From a virus: a stretch of 29,558 nt of DNA. Each line of letters starts with the position of its first letter. The first letter of the stretch is position 1. This document shows positions 20,136-27,571 of this stretch, piece after piece. The translations under genes were made by a program, and so were the position numbers. The notes under the pieces are model-generated. The model had not been told where the DNA came from, made no database searches, and was given only the letters and a program-made list of their open reading frames with translations. The stretch lies in the IMG/VR virus record IMGVR_UViG_3300047472_000246, positions 1 through 29,558 of that record; one strand, given 5' to 3'.

Positions 20136-20405
20136 ATGTCCGAGATCAACTTCCCCGGCGACGCCGAGACCCTCGTGAAGACGGCGGCCACCTACGGCCG
20201 TGACCTGGCCGAGCGCGTCGTCTGGTCCTTCCTCGGCGGCACCACCGCCGTGGTCGTGGCCGCCGGCCCGTCCGACATGTTCCACGCGTCGTTCTGGCAG
20301 GCCGTCGCAGTCGGCGGCTACGCGGCCGTCGCGTCCCTCGCCAAGGGCCTCATCGCCCGCTGGAGAGGCACCACGAACAGCGCGTCCACGGCCAAGGGCG
20401 TCTGA
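20136..20405 (+). CDS. Holin
   Basis: ATG 20136 follows AAAGGAACCCCGACC; 89 residues. A short polar start (MSEINFPGDAETLVKTAATYGRDLAERVV) is followed by two hydrophobic segments, WSFLGGTTAVVVAAGP (about 30-46) and FWQAVAVGGYAAVASLAKGLI (about 52-73), and a basic end (ARWRGTTNSASTAKGV). This two-helix form with charged tail is the r1t-type holin design common in actinophages. It opens the membrane for the endolysin just upstream. The end overlaps the next gene by one base. Confidence 0.83.
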   Translation: MSEINFPGDAETLVKTAATYGRDLAERVVWSFLGGTTAVVVAAGPSDMFHASFWQAVAVGGYAAVASLAKGLIARWRGTTNSASTAKGV

Positions 20406-20851
20406 TGCCCCGGGCCGCGCGAGCCCGGCTCTGGCGACATCTGGGCTGGCGCGGCCTGGCGCTCGCCGGAGTTGGCGCCTGCTGGACCGTCTACGGCACC
20501 GGCCTCATCGTGACCCGACGTGCGGGCGTCACCGCGGCGACCGAGCCCGTCACCGGCCTCATGTGCATGGAGGCGTGGGGGTCGGTGTGGATCGCGTGCG
20601 GTGTCCTGGGTCTGCTCGCCGGAGCGCGCCGCCCGGGCCGGGACCTATGGGGGTTCGCGGCGGTCGCCCTCCCCACCATCGTGTGGGCGATCGCCTACAG
20701 CGCGGCAGCGGTCCGCGGGGACTACGCGCCAGGCTGGGCTTCGGTCCCGCTGTTCGTCGCGGTCCTGCTCCTGGTCGTCATCGTCGCCGCGCTGACGGGG
20801 GGACAGCGCCGGATATGCACGTGCGAGAGAGGGGGCACCGGTGGGAGGTGA
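20405..20851 (+). CDS. Four-helix membrane protein of the lysis block
   Basis: ATG 20405 shares one base with the holin stop; 148 residues. After a basic start (MPRAARARLWRHLGWR) there are about four hydrophobic segments: GLALAGVGACWTVYGTGLIV, AWGSVWIACGVLGLLAG, GFAAVALPTIVWAIAYSAAAV and WASVPLFVAVLLLVVIVAAL. The C-terminal tail is basic with two Cys (RRICTCERGG). I do not recognise the family. Next to holin and endolysin it may modulate lysis or carry a second membrane activity; a lysogeny gene such as superinfection exclusion is also possible. Confidence 0.72.
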   Translation: MPRAARARLWRHLGWRGLALAGVGACWTVYGTGLIVTRRAGVTAATEPVTGLMCMEAWGSVWIACGVLGLLAGARRPGRDLWGFAAVALPTIVWAIAYSAAAVRGDYAPGWASVPLFVAVLLLVVIVAALTGGQRRICTCERGGTGGR

Positions 20852-21200
20852 CGGCACCGTCCTGGGGGTGGTGATCGCCGTGGTGGGCGTCATCGGCTCG
20901 GTCCTCGTCGCGCGGGTCTCCGCGCCTTCGCCGGACCGGTCGGCTCTGGAGGACGACGACTCGCGGGACGTAGCCGAGCTGCGGGTGTCACCCGCGATCT
21001 GGGAGCGGTTCGCCGTCCTGGAAGCCAAGGTCGACCACCTCACCGAGCTGGTGGAGAAGAAGAAGGAAGAGGTCACCACGCTGGAGCGCCTGCTCCGGAT
21101 GGCGATGCGCATCGTGCGGCGTGCGAACCGGCGCCTGGCCCGCTCTGGAGCTCCACCCGAGGAAGTCCCGCGCGAGCTGATCCCGTACAGCATCGACTGA
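20841..21200 (+). CDS. Single-span membrane protein with cytoplasmic coiled coil
   Basis: GTG 20841 lies inside the end of the preceding gene (11-base overlap); 119 residues. Residues about 6-26 (TVLGVVIAVVGVIGSVLVARV) form one membrane segment. The part from about 50 to 100 (ERFAVLEAKVDHLTELVEKKKEEVTTLERLLRMAMRIVRRANRRL) is heptad-like and charged, then a short Pro-rich end. The layout resembles a membrane-anchored coiled-coil partner of holins (antiholin- or spanin-like), though hosts of this type lack an outer membrane. A strong terminator follows. Function is not established. Confidence 0.7.
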   Translation: MGGDGTVLGVVIAVVGVIGSVLVARVSAPSPDRSALEDDDSRDVAELRVSPAIWERFAVLEAKVDHLTELVEKKKEEVTTLERLLRMAMRIVRRANRRLARSGAPPEEVPRELIPYSID

Positions 21201-21204
21201 CAAG

Positions 21205-21241
21205 GCGGCCCCGCTCTCCTTCGGGAGGGCGGGGCCGCTTT
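21205..21241 (+). terminator. Strong terminator after the lysis block
   Basis: A 10-bp GC stem, GCGGCCCCGC (21205-21214) with GCGGGGCCGC (21229-21238), is extended inside by CTCC/GGAG around a TTCG tetraloop, 15 bp in all with one T-G pair. TTT follows. It separates the late operon from the converging HAD gene and could act in both directions. Confidence 0.88.
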
Positions 21242-21260
21242 CGTCATGTCCGGCGCTCGG

Positions 21261-21929
21261 TCACACCCCGATGGCCGCCAGAGCTCGGGCAGTGTCCGAC
21301 AGGTCCTCCAGCACGGCGGCGGCGCCAGCTTCGTGCAGGTCGGCCGCCGAGGTCCGGCCCGTGGCCACCGCCACCACCCGAACTCCGGCCTCCCTCCCGC
21401 CCGCAACATCAGCCGGGGTGTCTCCGATGAACACCGCACTGCTGGGTACGACGTCGGCGCGCACAAGGGCGGTGTGCAGCAGCTCGGGGCGCTCGTCCCC
21501 GTCCTCGCTGTAGGCCCCCTCGTCCAGGCTTAGGTAGCTATCCAGCCCGAACACGGCGAGTTTGACCTCACCGGCCCGCCGGACGTTGCCGGTCACCACG
21601 GACTGCCGCACGCCACGATCTGCCAGAGCGGCGAGGACTGCCGCGGCACCAGGCAGCGCGTGCCCACGTTCCCTCAGCTCGGCAGCGCGGCGGATGTGGA
21701 GCGCGCCCAGGGCGTCAGCAAAGCGGGTGAACAGCTCGTCGCTGTAGGCCAGGTCGTGAAGGCGCACGGTCTCCCGCAGGATCACCCGCTCCGTCGACCC
21801 CGTCACTGCCGCCTGCTTTCGCAACGCCACGCCCGTCACCTGCTCGAACGCAGCCGCCCACAACTCTCCACCCAGGCCCCGGGTAGCCATCAGCGTGTGG
21901 TCGATGTCCCACAACACGAGGTCTGGCAC
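21261..21929 (-). CDS. HAD-superfamily phosphatase-like hydrolase
   Basis: GTG 21929 is chosen because AGAGGAG lies about eight bases upstream and the protein then starts at VPDLVLWDIDHTL; a longer start at 21965 lacks a better site. 222 residues. Motif I is D8-x-D10-x-T in WDIDHT, a cap region follows (about 15-85), motif II is TGN in SVVTGNV, motif III Lys is in GEVKLAVFG, and motif IV acid is in FIGDTPADV. All catalytic positions of a phosphoglycolate-phosphatase-type HAD enzyme are present, so it is probably active on a small phosphorylated substrate that I cannot name. It is convergent with the lysis operon and divergent from the HTH gene. Not a normal phage gene; likely cargo. Confidence 0.85.
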   Translation of the reverse strand: MPDLVLWDIDHTLMATRGLGGELWAAAFEQVTGVALRKQAAVTGSTERVILRETVRLHDLAYSDELFTRFADALGALHIRRAAELRERGHALPGAAAVLAALADRGVRQSVVTGNVRRAGEVKLAVFGLDSYLSLDEGAYSEDGDERPELLHTALVRADVVPSSAVFIGDTPADVAGGREAGVRVVAVATGRTSAADLHEAGAAAVLEDLSDTARALAAIGV

Positions 21930-22008
21930 CGACGACTCCTCTCTGAACGAACAGGGCGTCACCATGCCCCCGGAAGCCTACGCTCAGAGCAGCGAGCAAG
22001 GAGCGGGC
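21930..22008. promoter_or_regulatory. Divergent control region of the accessory cassette
   Basis: The 79 bases between the HAD and HTH gene starts must hold both promoters. AAGGAG near 21998-22003 serves the HTH gene and AGAGGAG on the other strand serves the HAD gene. I see no clear -35/-10 pair or perfect dyad in it. Confidence 0.5.
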
Positions 22009-23211
22009 ATGGTTGCAGCAGACCTCCCCATCGGGGACCGGATCAGGCACTACCGCGGCGGACGCCGCCAGGATGCAGTCGCGGGCCTGGTCGGCATCTC
22101 ACCGGACTACCTGTCCCAGATCGAACGAGGCCTCAAAGTGCCGTCGCTGCCGATCCTCTACGCCCTCGCTCAGGAACTGGGTGTGCTGGCGTCCGCGCTG
22201 CTGTCCGAGACGCCGCCAGCAGACGACGAGACGACGGATACAGCCGAGGCCGCCGTGGGCCGGGCGCTTCTGGGTTACGGCCCCGCTTGCAGCGCCACGC
22301 TCGTGCCGGCGGCCGTGCTCCGGGACCGGGTAGAGAGCGCGTGGCGCAGCTGGCAGACGGACGGCGACCGATTCACACGGGCCGCCGCTACGCTGCCCGC
22401 TCTCGTGGCCGACACGGAGCACGCTGTCAGGGCGGCACGGACGGGGGCGAACGCGGACGAGCGGCGAGCCGTCCTTCGTGCTGCCGCCGACCTGTACTGC
22501 CTGCTGCGCTCATACCTCCGGCGTACTGGACGCGTCGACCTTGCGACCCTCGCCGCCGACCGGGCGATGCGCGCCGCCGAGGACGCCGACGACCCGCTGC
22601 GCATCGCCGCCGCGCAATGGAACTTCGGCCACGTCCTCCTCGCGGCAGGACAGCCGGCCGAAGCCGAGGACCTGGCACTACAGGCGGCCGAGCAGGTAAC
22701 CGCAACGCGAATGCCGGATGCCGAACGAGCGGCGATGGGCGGCGCGTTGCAGCTGGTCGCCGTTGTGGCGTCGGCCCGACGGCGCCGTTGGTGGGAGGCC
22801 CGCGAGCGGCTACAGACCCACGCCGCGCCAGCCGCCCGACAGATCGCCGACAGCAGCAACATCGCCTTCACGGTGTTCGGGCCGACCAATGTGGCCCTGC
22901 ACGCGCTGAGTATCGATATGGAGGCTGGCGAGACCGGCGAGGCTCTACATACAGCGGACGCCATCGACACCGCCGGCCTGCCGTCGATCGAGCGCGAGTT
23001 CACCTTCGGCCTGGAGGTGGCCGCTTGCCACAGCCAGCGGCGCGATGACGCCGCCGCGCTGCTGTCCCTGCGCGACCTGGAGACGCTCGCGCCCGAGGAC
23101 CTGGCCCGCACGCCGCTCGCGCGGCATCTGCTGTTGACCGTGATCCGCCGGGCCCGCACGATGCATGCCCGCCAGGCAGAACAGTTGGCAGTCCGGATCG
23201 GTCTGATCTGA
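22009..23211 (+). CDS. HTH regulator with long helical-repeat C-terminal part
   Basis: ATG 22009 is chosen because AAGGAG lies just upstream; a longer start at 21964 lacks it. 400 residues. The XRE-type HTH is at about 8-60 (IGDRIRHYRGGRRQDAVAGLVGISPDYLSQIERGLKVPSL), with helix 3 ISPDYLSQIERG. From about 95 the protein is Ala/Arg/Glu-rich helix with repeat-like pairs (DLYCLLRSYLRRTGRVDLATLAADRAMRAAEDADDPLRIAAAQWNFGHVLLAAGQPAEAEDLALQAAE), the pattern of TPR domains. HTH plus TPR is the design of RRNPP-type regulators and of many actinobacterial XRE regulators that sense peptides or partners. A perfect dyad (23229-23251) follows the stop. Ligand and targets are unknown. Confidence 0.8.
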   Translation: MVAADLPIGDRIRHYRGGRRQDAVAGLVGISPDYLSQIERGLKVPSLPILYALAQELGVLASALLSETPPADDETTDTAEAAVGRALLGYGPACSATLVPAAVLRDRVESAWRSWQTDGDRFTRAAATLPALVADTEHAVRAARTGANADERRAVLRAAADLYCLLRSYLRRTGRVDLATLAADRAMRAAEDADDPLRIAAAQWNFGHVLLAAGQPAEAEDLALQAAEQVTATRMPDAERAAMGGALQLVAVVASARRRRWWEARERLQTHAAPAARQIADSSNIAFTVFGPTNVALHALSIDMEAGETGEALHTADAIDTAGLPSIEREFTFGLEVAACHSQRRDDAAALLSLRDLETLAPEDLARTPLARHLLLTVIRRARTMHARQAEQLAVRIGLI

Positions 23212-23228
23212 CAGCCGAGCCCGTGGGT

Positions 23229-23251
23229 CACCCGAACTGACAGTTCGGGTG
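23229..23251. promoter_or_regulatory. Perfect 23-bp dyad, candidate operator
   Basis: CACCCGAACTG and its exact complement CAGTTCGGGTG flank one A. It starts 18 bases after the HTH gene stop. It could fold as a 9-bp stem with a TGACA loop and act as a terminator, but no T-run follows and a -10-like TACGGT (23270-23275) lies just downstream, so an operator for the adjacent HTH protein is at least as likely. Confidence 0.6.
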
Positions 23252-23269
23252 GGGCTGGTGGTGCCTGCT

Positions 23270-23314
23270 TACGGTCTGCGTGTGAGACGGATCACCGTGA
23301 CCGTGGAGGCCTGA
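23270..23314 (+). promoter_or_regulatory. Candidate promoter and leaderless 10-codon ORF
   Basis: TACGGT at 23270-23275 fits a Streptomyces -10. A start seven bases later would coincide with GTG 23282, which opens VRRITVTVEA and stops at TGA 23312-23314, three bases before ATG 23318. No good -35 at standard spacing is seen; the dyad covers that position. The mini-ORF overlaps the GGAGG of the next gene, so it could couple translation. This is a proposal, not a demonstrated gene. Confidence 0.35.
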
Positions 23315-23317
23315 GCC

Positions 23318-23650
23318 ATGTCGAGCGAACACGCACCCACCCCGACCATCGACGTGCTCGCCTTACTCGCCCTCCCTGACGTGGATGACCTGTCGGACGA
23401 CCAGCGGCGCGGCGCGGTCTGCGTGTGGGGCGACAGCCCGCTCACCCCCCTGTCGGCCGTGGACCTCGGCGAGCGGCAGGCCGACGACGGTACGAACTGG
23501 TTCCCGCGGGGTTGCCGGTGGCACGCTCAGCGGCGGGCCATGGAAGCGCTTCAGGCTCATTCCGGATCGTGCGAGCAGTGCGTCGACGACCACGCCCAGT
23601 GCCCCGCCGGACTCGGCCTGGTCCGCCTCGTCAAGGAGACGCGGCGATGA
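23318..23650 (+). CDS. Small Cys/His-containing protein of the cassette (110 aa)
   Basis: ATG 23318 lies behind GTGGAGGCCTGAGCC; 110 residues. The first half has IDVLALLALPDVDDLSDDQRRGAVCVWGDSPLTPLSAVDLGERQ, the second WFPRGCRWHAQRRAMEALQAHSGSCEQCVDDHAQCPAGLGLVRLVKETRR. C-x-x-H near RGCRWH and C-x-x-C-x-x-x-H-x-x-C near SCEQCVDDHAQC could form a zinc site. I have seen such small proteins annotated only as hypothetical in actinomycete mobile elements. It overlaps the next gene by four bases. It would be under the dyad/promoter upstream. Function unknown. Confidence 0.7.
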   Translation: MSSEHAPTPTIDVLALLALPDVDDLSDDQRRGAVCVWGDSPLTPLSAVDLGERQADDGTNWFPRGCRWHAQRRAMEALQAHSGSCEQCVDDHAQCPAGLGLVRLVKETRR

Positions 23651-23805
23651 TCTGCGGACGCTGCGACAGGGCGATCCGCAAGGGCGAGCCATACACGGAG
23701 CACGAAATCACGCGGCCAACGGGCCCGGGCGCGCTCGTGTACCGGCACGTGGAGCTGTGCCGCAAGGTCCCGACGCGGTCGACACAGGCGTCCATACGCC
23801 ACTAG
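23647..23805 (+). CDS. Very small zinc-ribbon-like protein (52 aa)
   Basis: ATG 23647 overlaps the preceding stop (ATGA); 52 residues, starting MICGRCDRAIRKGEPYTEHEI, with HVELCRKVPT later. C3-x-x-C6 and a distal H-x-x-x-C could bind one zinc ion as in LIM-like or ribbon knuckles. Co-translation with the 110-residue neighbour is probable. No membrane or export signal. Function unknown; it may be a partner of the neighbour. Confidence 0.62.
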   Translation: MICGRCDRAIRKGEPYTEHEITRPTGPGALVYRHVELCRKVPTRSTQASIRH

Positions 23806-23835
23806 GCCCCCGCTCCCGGTGGTCGGCCCGGGGGC
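23806..23835 (+). terminator. Possible terminator after the cassette
   Basis: GCCCCCG (23806-23812) pairs with CGGGGGC (23829-23835) around a 16-base loop directly after the stop of the 52-residue gene. No T-run follows, so strength is uncertain. Confidence 0.45.
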
Positions 23836-23882
23836 GGGATGTACGCGGCTGCTCCGACGCCCCATCTGTGCAGCCGCCGTGT

Positions 23883-23915
23883 CCCGCCGCCGGGCCACCC
23901 CGTCCCGGCGGCGGG
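23883..23915 (-). terminator. Hairpin directly after the small XRE gene
   Basis: CCCGCCGCCGGG (23883-23894) and CCCGGCGGCGGG (23904-23915) form a perfect 12-bp stem with a nine-base loop. On the minus strand it begins immediately after the stop codon of the XRE gene. There is no T-run, as for many Streptomyces terminators; it may serve both converging genes. Confidence 0.6.
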
Positions 23916-24149
23916 TCACCCCACGAGTTCGGATAGCGGCACGTCCAGCGCCCGGGCGATCTTCAGCAGCGTGGAGAGTTTCATCTCCTCGCCGGACTCG
24001 ACGCGCTGGAGCGTCATGCGGTTGATGTGGGCAGCCAACCACACTTGATCTTGAGTGAGGTTCTGGCGGCGTCTCTCCGCGCGGATGCTTCTACCGATGG
24101 CCCGGCGGCGCTCGGTGATCCAGGTGTCGTCGTCGGGCAGATCTGGCAC
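23916..24149 (-). CDS. Small XRE-family DNA-binding protein (77 aa)
   Basis: GTG 24149 is the likely start, giving PDLPDDDTWITERRRAIGRSIRAERRRQNLTQDQVWLAAHINRMTLQRVESGEEMKLSTLLKIARALDVPLSELVG. The HTH lies at about 30-60 with a typical QDQVWLAAHINRMTLQRVESG turn. The reading frame extends upstream to 24287 but that part looks non-coding and includes inverted repeats. No ribosome-binding site is seen, so translation may be leaderless. It is just left of the attachment region, reads toward the cassette and may regulate either. A toxin partner is not visible. Confidence 0.72.
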   Translation of the reverse strand: MPDLPDDDTWITERRRAIGRSIRAERRRQNLTQDQVWLAAHINRMTLQRVESGEEMKLSTLLKIARALDVPLSELVG

Positions 24150-24249
24150 TCGACAAACGCTCTGGCGTGCATGATCGTATGTCTGCCTAACGCATTCGGC
24201 TTTTTGTGATCTTCGGCCACACGGGGACGAACTGCGCGGGTAGATCACA

Positions 24250-24274
24250 GGAGAACCCTGGCCCCCGGTTCTCC
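24250..24274. repeat. Inverted repeat in attachment region
   Basis: GGAGAACC (24250-24257) and GGTTCTCC (24267-24274) are perfect complements around nine bases. No T-run follows on either strand. Confidence 0.55.
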
Positions 24275-24287
24275 CCTCACGGCCCAC

Positions 24288-24319
24288 AGCCCTGCGGATC
24301 TGGCATATGCCGCAGGGCT
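24288..24319. repeat. Inverted repeat in attachment region
   Basis: AGCCCTGCGG (24288-24297) and CCGCAGGGCT (24310-24319) form a perfect 10-bp stem around 12 bases, with GGCATATGCC overlapping the right inner edge. No T-run follows. Confidence 0.6.
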
Positions 24320-24431
24320 ACAGGTATGGTCAGGATTCGAACATGCGTTCACACGAATGGGTGATTACGCCCTCCCACCTGCTCTGTTAGACATGTAGTC
24401 CACGCGGCGTACAGCACCTACGCCCCCAGAT

Positions 24432-24546: not shown

Positions 24547-24572
24547 TGATCATTTGGTCGATATTTGGTCGA
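24547..24572. repeat. Integrase arm-type repeat, left copy
   Basis: Two TTTGGTCGA units at 24553-24561 and 24564-24572 are spaced 11 bases, about one helical turn, preceded by TGATCA. The 26 bases recur at 24801-24826 with two mismatches. The two copies flank the tRNA-like core, as arm sites of tyrosine integrases do. Confidence 0.7.
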
Positions 24573-24683: not shown

Positions 24684-24701
24684 GAGCCCTGGTCAAACGT
24701 G

Positions 24702-24746
24702 TGCCCTCGGCAGGATTCGAACCTGCGACACCGGCTTTAGGAGAGC
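24702..24746 (-). other. attP: attP core: 3' half of tRNA-Arg(CCU)
   Basis: On the minus strand this is GCTCTCCTAAAGCCGG, then a five-base variable loop, a GCAGG-TTCGAAT-CCTGC T-arm and CGAGGGCA, i.e. from the anticodon stem-loop (U33, anticodon CCT) to the discriminator. The 5' half is absent, so it is a copy of a tRNA end, not a tRNA gene. Integration into tRNA-Arg genes reading AGG is known for Streptomyces phage VWB. After integration the phage would restore the tRNA 3' end. Confidence 0.82.
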
Positions 24747-24800
24747 AGCGTTTACACCTGGCATTCGCGCTGATAGGAGCTGGTGCGGTTGCACTTCGAG

Positions 24801-24826
24801 TGATCGTTTGGTCGATATTTGGTAGA
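24801..24826. repeat. Integrase arm-type repeat, right copy
   Basis: TTTGGTCGA at 24807-24815 and TTTGGTAGA at 24818-24826, preceded by TGATCG. It ends one base before the integrase stop codon. Same orientation as the left copy 254 bases away. Confidence 0.7.
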
Positions 24827-26655: not shown

Positions 26656-27153
26656 TCAGTCGTCTGCAACCTCATCGTCTTCATTGGCGAGGTTCTGGAC
26701 ATAGCGGCGGACCTTGCGGTACCGGGCGGCGATGCGCCGCATCTCCTCGGGGGAGGCGCCCTTCTTCCCCTGGAGGACGACGATCACGTGGCCGTCGGCT
26801 TCTTCCGGCCCAAGGGTGATCACGGTGGCATCGAGCGTCTCCGACTGGCGCAGCTCGTACTCAACCGCCGGCGGTAGCGGCAACTGGTCCGGCTGAGACA
26901 GGGCGGCCTCTTCCTCCCGCGCCTCCGGCTCGCCCGCCGCAATGCGCTCGGCTTCACCGTCCTCGAAGCCGAGGAATCTCGCGTACTTCCGGACGCCCGC
27001 GTTGACCTTGGCGAACTTTCCGGCCTCGATGTTCTGGACGGTCGTGCGTCCCAGGCCGGTCTGCAAAGCGGCTTCCGGCTGAGTGAGCCGAGGCCTGCGC
27101 GCCTCGCGTGCCAGCTGGAGCCGCTGGCCCAGCTTCTTGGTTCCCTCGTCCAT
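26656..27153 (-). CDS. Putative immunity repressor (XRE family)
   Basis: ATG 27153 (MDEGTKKLGQRLQLAREARR) is chosen since the upstream extension to 27189 looks non-coding. 165 residues. HTH at about 8-60 with RLTQPEAALQTGLGRTTVQNIEAGKF. The C-terminal half has VEYELRQSETLDATVITLGPEEADGHVIVVLQGKKGASPEEMRRIAARYRKVRRYVQNLANEDDEVADD and an acidic end; no LexA-like Ser/Lys autocleavage motif is evident, so induction may not be RecA-dependent cleavage. It is divergent from the early HTH gene, the usual place of the phage master repressor. Confidence 0.78.
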   Translation of the reverse strand: MDEGTKKLGQRLQLAREARRPRLTQPEAALQTGLGRTTVQNIEAGKFAKVNAGVRKYARFLGFEDGEAERIAAGEPEAREEEAALSQPDQLPLPPAVEYELRQSETLDATVITLGPEEADGHVIVVLQGKKGASPEEMRRIAARYRKVRRYVQNLANEDDEVADD

Positions 27154-27352
27154 GGGAACCCATCTTGGCACATGCGGTTGCACGCCCATAGCTCAGATTC
27201 GGCGCTTTGACCTGGGCATTATTCGGCATTTACGCACCTCCGGTTGCATCTCGCCACATGCGCACTCCGAGCCATGCATGCAATCAGCTCACACTTCTTC
27301 GCGAAAAAGTGAGCAGCCTGCTTGCATTGCGTAGCTAAAGTGTGGTCAGAAT
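27154..27352. promoter_or_regulatory. Divergent lysis-lysogeny control region
   Basis: About 200 bases, lower in GC than the rest. GGTTGCAC (27176-27183) and GGTTGCAT (27242-27249) share an orientation; ACATGCG occurs twice (27170s and 27250s). An imperfect dyad at 27288-27313 has CTCAC/GTGAG outer arms and TTCGCGAA in the centre. TAAAGT (27336-27341) is a possible rightward -10. Operators for repressor and Cro-like proteins are expected here. Confidence 0.6.
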
Positions 27353-27571
27353 GTGGGCGTGAAGCCCAACGGACCAATGATCAGAGGCGTCCGCACGGGC
27401 CGGGGAATGGGCCTTCGTGAGCTTGAAGCCCGGACCGGCCTGAATCGCGGATACCTGTCCCGCCTCGAACGTGAGCAGGTGCGGGACGTCGGCTCTGAGC
27501 AGGTCCGCCGGGTCGCCGAGGCCCTCGACGTTCCCGAAGGCCTCCTGATCGACGAGGAGTCGACGCCGTGA
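27353..27571 (+). CDS. Small HTH protein, Cro-like early regulator
   Basis: GTG 27353 or GTG 27359 may start it (72 or 70 residues); no ribosome-binding site precedes either, so leaderless translation is likely. Sequence: MIRGVRTGRGMGLRELEARTGLNRGYLSRLEREQVRDVGSEQVRRVAEALDVPEGLLIDEE. The XRE HTH covers about residues 10-60 with helix 3 LNRGYLSRLERE. As first gene of the rightward early operon, facing the repressor, it takes the position of Cro. It overlaps the next gene by four bases (GTGA). Confidence 0.78.
   Translation: MGVKPNGPMIRGVRTGRGMGLRELEARTGLNRGYLSRLEREQVRDVGSEQVRRVAEALDVPEGLLIDEESTP

Follow-up and report, generated by a model that had tools for sequence, protein, structure and literature searches.

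Regulators of the RRNPPA group (PlcR, ComR, NprR, AimR) carry an N-terminal XRE helix-turn-helix (HTH) domain followed by a TPR superhelix, and the activators among them have a palindromic site near their own target gene. At PRM, lambda CI is a class II activator. Members of this class, for example CRP, bind at sites centred close to -41.5 and make up for the lack of a -35 box (PMC8561392, PMC6301791). The WhiJ/BldB (XRE-DUF397) systems of Streptomyces place an XRE regulator beside small genes at many paralogous loci, and one such regulator, WhiJ9, activates its neighbour iosA (PMC10294661). Regulators of the phrog_5823 family are encoded by phages SF1, SF3 and Chymera.

The DNA analysed here in its entirety (the window), 29,558 bases from a virus record, contains tail genes, an endolysin, a holin and a tyrosine integrase (structural genes were recognised by eye), and it is that of a Streptomyces-type phage. 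A cassette located between lysis genes and integrase comprises, in order, a HAD-family hydrolase gene on the minus strand, an XRE-TPR regulator gene, a perfect dyad, a TACGGT box and two small overlapping genes. We consider it likely that this is a portable, self-contained class II activator cassette that would switch on the adjoining small genes, with binding, activation, a ligand and a role for the HAD hydrolase all being predicted.

The cassette shares with RRNPPA systems both the XRE HTH-TPR protein design and the placement of a palindrome near the target gene. AimR has its site of action downstream of the gene that encodes it, and the conserved, putative operator of the cassette likewise lies downstream, before a small gene. 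The cassette differs from these systems in having no propeptide gene, in belonging to Actinomycetota rather than Bacillota, in the position of the operator (immediately behind the regulator gene and exactly at -42) and in its obligate HAD neighbour; sequence identity between the regulator and RRNPPA structures is just 10-14%. As in WhiJ/BldB, an XRE regulator stands beside small genes at many paralogous loci, but WhiJ9 recognises direct repeats that lie 113 bp ahead of its target start, whereas the cassette has a dyad at -42, its regulator has a TPR domain and its partner is not DUF397 (Pfam gave no DUF397 match in the 110-aa and 52-aa products of the small genes). The dyad at about -42 replaces the -35 box, as in class II activation; what sets the cassettes apart from other class II activators is that each regulator would serve a single promoter, located just past the regulator gene, and that paralogues differ in operator sequence but preserve the geometry. 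The regulators of SF1, SF3 and Chymera belong to the same family as that of the window, match it over the full length and have a dyad and -10 box behind the gene, but they are about 31% identical to it, with another operator sequence and no HAD partner. The arrangement was not found described in the literature searched, which covered part of published work.

The regulator and the dyad behind its gene

The regulator (22009-23211, plus strand) is a 400-aa protein of the phrog_5823 family, whose profile covers residues 8-399 (E 1.8e-70). Pfam gave HTH_3 at E 5e-9 and, weakly, TPR_12. An AF2 model built with 70 relatives (pLDDT 93.5, pTM 0.81) places the HTH ahead of TPR-like helix pairs. The recognition helix comprises residues 32-39 (22102-22125, plus strand), within ISPDYLSQIERG, and its class tracks the class of operator behind the gene. 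Residues 101-396 (22309-23196, plus strand) form a TPR-like superhelix, presumably a sensor of a ligand or partner. Foldseek and VIA-align matches to the model included PlcR, phage Rap, ComR, NprR, AimR and MalT domain III amid eukaryotic TPR proteins, with Rap, NprR, AimR and MalT domain III matching the superhelix; a second structural comparison was dominated by generic TPR proteins, and the absence of a family from it carries no meaning. The original prediction of an N-terminal XRE HTH joined to a helical-repeat part, an RRNPP-type design, is thus borne out by the model and its PlcR, ComR, NprR, Rap and AimR matches, and the C-terminal fold, on which that prediction hung, is TPR in the model. 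The HTH-TPR fold alone does not establish peptide sensing.

The gene appears to have its own promoter, marked by a conserved -10-like box (TACGCT, 21979-21984, plus strand) within CCTACGCT, which is conserved ahead of the start codon among relatives. Neither a scan with the operator position weight matrix (PWM) nor comparison of the upstream region among relatives revealed an operator upstream of the regulator gene, and autoregulation via the dyad was rejected on this ground.

Seventeen bases past the regulator stop codon lies a perfect 23-bp dyad (23229-23251, centre 23240), composed of two 11-bp arms around a single central A (CACCCGAACTG-A-CAGTTCGGGTG). Its centre is 30 bp before the TACGGT box (23270-23275, plus strand), the predicted -10 box of the cargo promoter, from which transcription would start at about 23282 without a -35 box; the dyad would thereby be centred at about -42. 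Re-reading of the window confirmed the coordinates first assigned to the 400-aa reading frame, dyad, TACGGT box and small genes. In the PWM scan of the window, the dyad scored 40.1 and the runner-up site 4.9. Because of this difference, and because a dyad and -10 box recur behind the stop codons of relatives down to 28% identity, the dyad is not attributable to chance. A degenerate distal dyad (GAGCC-CGT-GGGTC, 23217-23229) lies 17 bp upstream of the main one; at the corresponding offset, 47 bp from the -10 box, bases were 75% self-complementary across 41 subfamily loci, compared with 8-43% at other offsets. One class of relatives has tandem operators, with a second dyad 27 bp upstream of the main one. 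It is very likely, judging from conservation and position, that the regulator binds the dyad, and strict conservation across relatives supports the earlier proposal that the dyad is the operator of this regulator.

Conservation and spacing among relatives

Close relatives of the regulator (44-86% identity) were drawn from Streptomyces genomes, viral contigs and plasmids. Nearly all have ACCCGA(A/G)CTnnnAG(C/T)TCGGGT 12-25 bases past the stop codon, followed by CCTACGGTC, so that the dyad proved to be conserved behind homologues, as the original prediction had asked. The half-site hardly varies among 33 distinct sites, and its position 4 can be A or G independently on each side; consequently, 15 of the 33 subfamily sites have an A-C mismatch there. 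The mismatches and the near-invariant half-site fit a site for a protein and not an RNA hairpin.

Addition of about 80 more distant relatives (28-36% identity) revealed that many have dyads of quite different sequence, namely ACCCGGAA..TTCCGGGT, GGGGGACA..TGTCCCCC, GGGGCAGGATTCCTGCCCC and the tandem GGGGGTAC/GGTAGG. Regulators spanning 28-100% protein identity, with at least five unrelated operators, keep one spacing, the dyad centre being exactly 30 bp upstream of the first base of the TACGGT-type -10 box. Averaged over 46 non-redundant loci, palindromicity was 0.74 at 30 bp and 0.2-0.35 at every other offset. A fixed criterion, under which at least 6 of 10 positions had to be complementary at 30 bp from TAnnnT, was passed by 49 of the 78 non-redundant loci; other offsets gave 0-5 of 78, and random pieces of the same loci 2 of 1,355. 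After clustering at 75%, the counts were 16 of 40 loci and 2 of 298 shuffled sequences. The distance from stop codon to dyad ranges from 14 to 61 bases while the spacing between dyad and -10 box stays fixed. In the -10 box, T-A-C and the final T are invariant (39/39 loci), and no -35 box was found, as matches to TTGACA averaged 2.0 compared with 2.44 in shuffled sequences, none being above chance. The value of -42 for the dyad centre assumes that the -10 box occupies -12 to -7 relative to a predicted transcription start.

The arrangement is missing in 29 of the 78 non-redundant relatives, mostly subfamilies with NUDIX or flavoprotein genes behind the regulator, and is therefore not universal in the XRE-TPR superfamily. 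Subfamilies of this kind (e.g., L110, L118, L119 and L123; L093, L101 and L108) lack a dyad after the stop codon; their operator may be located within the regulator coding sequence. In another subfamily (L097, L120, L130, L133 and L134), AGTACTAGACAGTACT or a close variant adjoins the stop codon and stands 20.5 bp ahead of a -10-like box, a different spacing.

Recognition helices pair with particular operators: ISPDYLSQIERG with ACCCGAACT, RSEDW with ACCCGGAA, GRGPDWLKKIE with GGGGGACA, RSTEWVKAIE with GGGGGTA, and SPSWVKQVE with GGGGCAGG. Although phylogeny explains much of the correlation between operator and protein (O~T 0.74), operator similarity followed that of the recognition region beyond what the C-terminal domains account for (partial Mantel 0.26, 0/2,000 permutations; rest of the HTH 0.08). 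Two groups with C-terminal domains just 31-33% identical both have RSEDW and GACCCGGAA.

The operator-promoter was found to be restricted to the locus of the regulator, one decayed copy aside. The operator with its -10 box occurred in 2 of 298 Streptomycetaceae genomes, both times at an XRE locus (reversed control, 0), and 26 genomes chosen for carrying a relative gave 19 matches, 17 of them at an XRE locus. A match at L060 was set aside as a chance terminator-like site rather than a working copy. At L071 (G017:C21:172546), an operator-promoter without a regulator precedes an apparently frameshifted cargo gene, and this locus looks like a decayed cassette.

Mode of action and alternative explanations

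In the mechanism that we favour, the XRE-TPR protein would be made from its own TACGCT-box promoter and, presumably as a dimer, bind the dyad directly behind its gene. From about -42 the bound regulator would stand in for the absent -35 box and recruit RNA polymerase to the TACGGT promoter, and this class II activation would lead to transcription of the two overlapping small Cys genes. The weaker distal dyad 17 bp upstream may aid cooperative binding. The TPR superhelix would sense a ligand or partner, which the divergent HAD hydrolase may make or remove. The site has class II geometry, in that the dyad centre is 30 bp from the -10 box of a promoter with a predicted start and a -35 region not above chance. 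The hydrolase gene (21261-21965, minus strand; Pfam HAD) is divergent from the regulator and probably has a GTG start at about 21929. It was the divergent neighbour at 49 of 50 loci with a regulator at least 44% identical and at 0 of 81 more distant loci, and a link between the hydrolase and the signal is plausible.

The same regulator and operator could instead form a repressing switch, in which a dimer over the -35 region keeps RNA polymerase out for as long as the TPR domain has not met its signal. Repression is common among phage XRE proteins, and the dyad does overlap the -35 zone. We nonetheless regard repression as unlikely, given that the promoter offers sigma no -35 box to be covered and that spacing is exact to the base pair across unrelated operators, a precision needless for steric block.

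The first cargo gene (23318-23650, plus strand) encodes a Cys-rich protein of 110 aa, with conserved Cys and His residues in 15 aligned proteins. The second (23647-23805, plus strand), which overlaps the first as ATGA, encodes a 52-aa protein with a CxxC motif and a conserved His. In L003/L057 and L070, the 110-aa domain continues into sequence resembling the 52-aa protein, and such fusions favour a shared function of the two window genes. Pfam, NCBIfam, PHROGs and PADLOC were uninformative on both proteins. A zinc-protein fold for the 110-aa product was considered and dropped, as its AF2 model, although confident (pLDDT 90), had no PDB fold match below E 0.5. Across relatives, the genes behind the promoter belong to a family of 150-195 aa (33 loci, with no meaningful Pfam match), the 110-aa Cys type (12), the phage SF1 type (11) and a HATPase-like type (4). 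One cargo family can follow different operator classes, as the 150-195-aa family does in L151, L153 and L154. The strict conservation of the dyad and -10 arrangement favours the earlier idea of a self-contained switch over adjoining small genes.

Small variable genes beside an XRE gene on mobile elements also recall toxin-antitoxin or defence loci, in which the small Cys proteins would be the active element and the regulator would keep them silent; indeed, XRE-DUF397 pairs were formerly classed as toxin-antitoxin systems (PMC6262351). This is very unlikely here. The XRE-DUF397 pair that was tested proved non-toxic, the cargo families are diverse, and PADLOC gave no match for the cargo and only generic HTH matches for the regulators.

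The layout had also been likened to a peptide-controlled lysogeny module. In an AimR/RRNPP-type switch, the choice between lysis and lysogeny depends on a peptide that is secreted, taken up again and bound by the TPR domain. The HTH-TPR design, with its fold matches to PlcR, ComR, NprR, Rap and AimR, agrees with such a switch, and AimR too is an activator whose DNA site lies past the end of the aimR gene (PMC6536502). However, 37 small open reading frames in 21200-24300 were checked for a conserved signal peptide and no adjacent gene for an exported propeptide was found; the widely conserved small frames in this interval overlap the HAD and regulator coding sequences. Moreover, the two large RRNPPA surveys consulted concern Bacillota (PMC12700828, PMC10075063), and the cassette is found on linear plasmids and at chromosomal loci (L018, L023) with flanks without recognised phage genes. 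Immunity genes also appear to lie elsewhere: a candidate repressor/Cro-like pair occupies 26656-27571 of the window, and Chymera has, in addition to its XRE-TPR gene, a separately annotated immunity repressor. The lysogeny claim is therefore unsupported, and we consider a peptide switch highly improbable.

That the dyad simply ends the regulator transcript, without a regulatory role, is scarcely credible: a hairpin could form from it just past the stop codon, but there is no U-tract behind it, its bases and not merely their pairing are conserved (position 4 being A-C mismatched as described above), the spacing to the -10 box is fixed while that to the stop codon varies, and its class tracks the recognition helix, unlike terminators.

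If the class II reading is extended to all relatives, the cassettes may represent a large mobile family of single-target activators in actinobacteria and their phages, with operators recoded, the -42 position fixed and cargo exchanged, and, in the subfamily of the window, with the HAD hydrolase making or destroying the TPR ligand, hence a signalling system of its own; we put this forward tentatively, as a possibility with the odds against it. The analysis assigns an operator, promoter geometry and target to many uncharacterised Streptomyces regulators, which are usually annotated merely as 'helix-turn-helix transcriptional regulator'. A large recent survey of XRE binding motifs used only sequences upstream of regulator genes (PMC12565409), and sites of the cassette type would thus be missed. 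If binding holds true, the cassettes would provide naturally recoded activator-operator pairs for Streptomyces, and the obligate HAD partner would make testable what TPR regulators sense in actinobacteria.

The cassette slot in phage genomes

In related phages (L042), the cassette occupies the same slot, with lysis genes on one side and unrelated integrases on the other. No homologous integrase or repressor is common to the window phage and Chymera, nor is an integrase shared with L042; the window phage and Chymera/L042 share only the slot. In L086, genes upstream of the slot encode proteins 64-68% identical to those of the window at 20405-20851 and 20841-21200, and the slot itself holds a different XRE-TPR gene and operator class (GGGGGACA). 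XRE-TPR modules appear to be exchanged at this slot.

On the minus strand, 24701-24760 resembles, by eye, a tRNA-Arg (CCU) gene reduced to its 3' half, although ARAGORN found no whole tRNA there; this stretch is probably the attP core. Its T-arm sequence has a shorter copy at 24331-24347. Beside the integrase, two direct repeats of 26 bases (TGATCATTTGGTCGATATTTGGTCGA; 24547-24572 and 24801-24826, 92% identical) lie on either side of the tRNA-like stretch and are perhaps integrase arm sites. Behind the cassette, a small XRE gene (23916-24287, minus strand) recurs in about 10 related loci, and its product resembles Chymera gp28 (37% identity over 63 residues).
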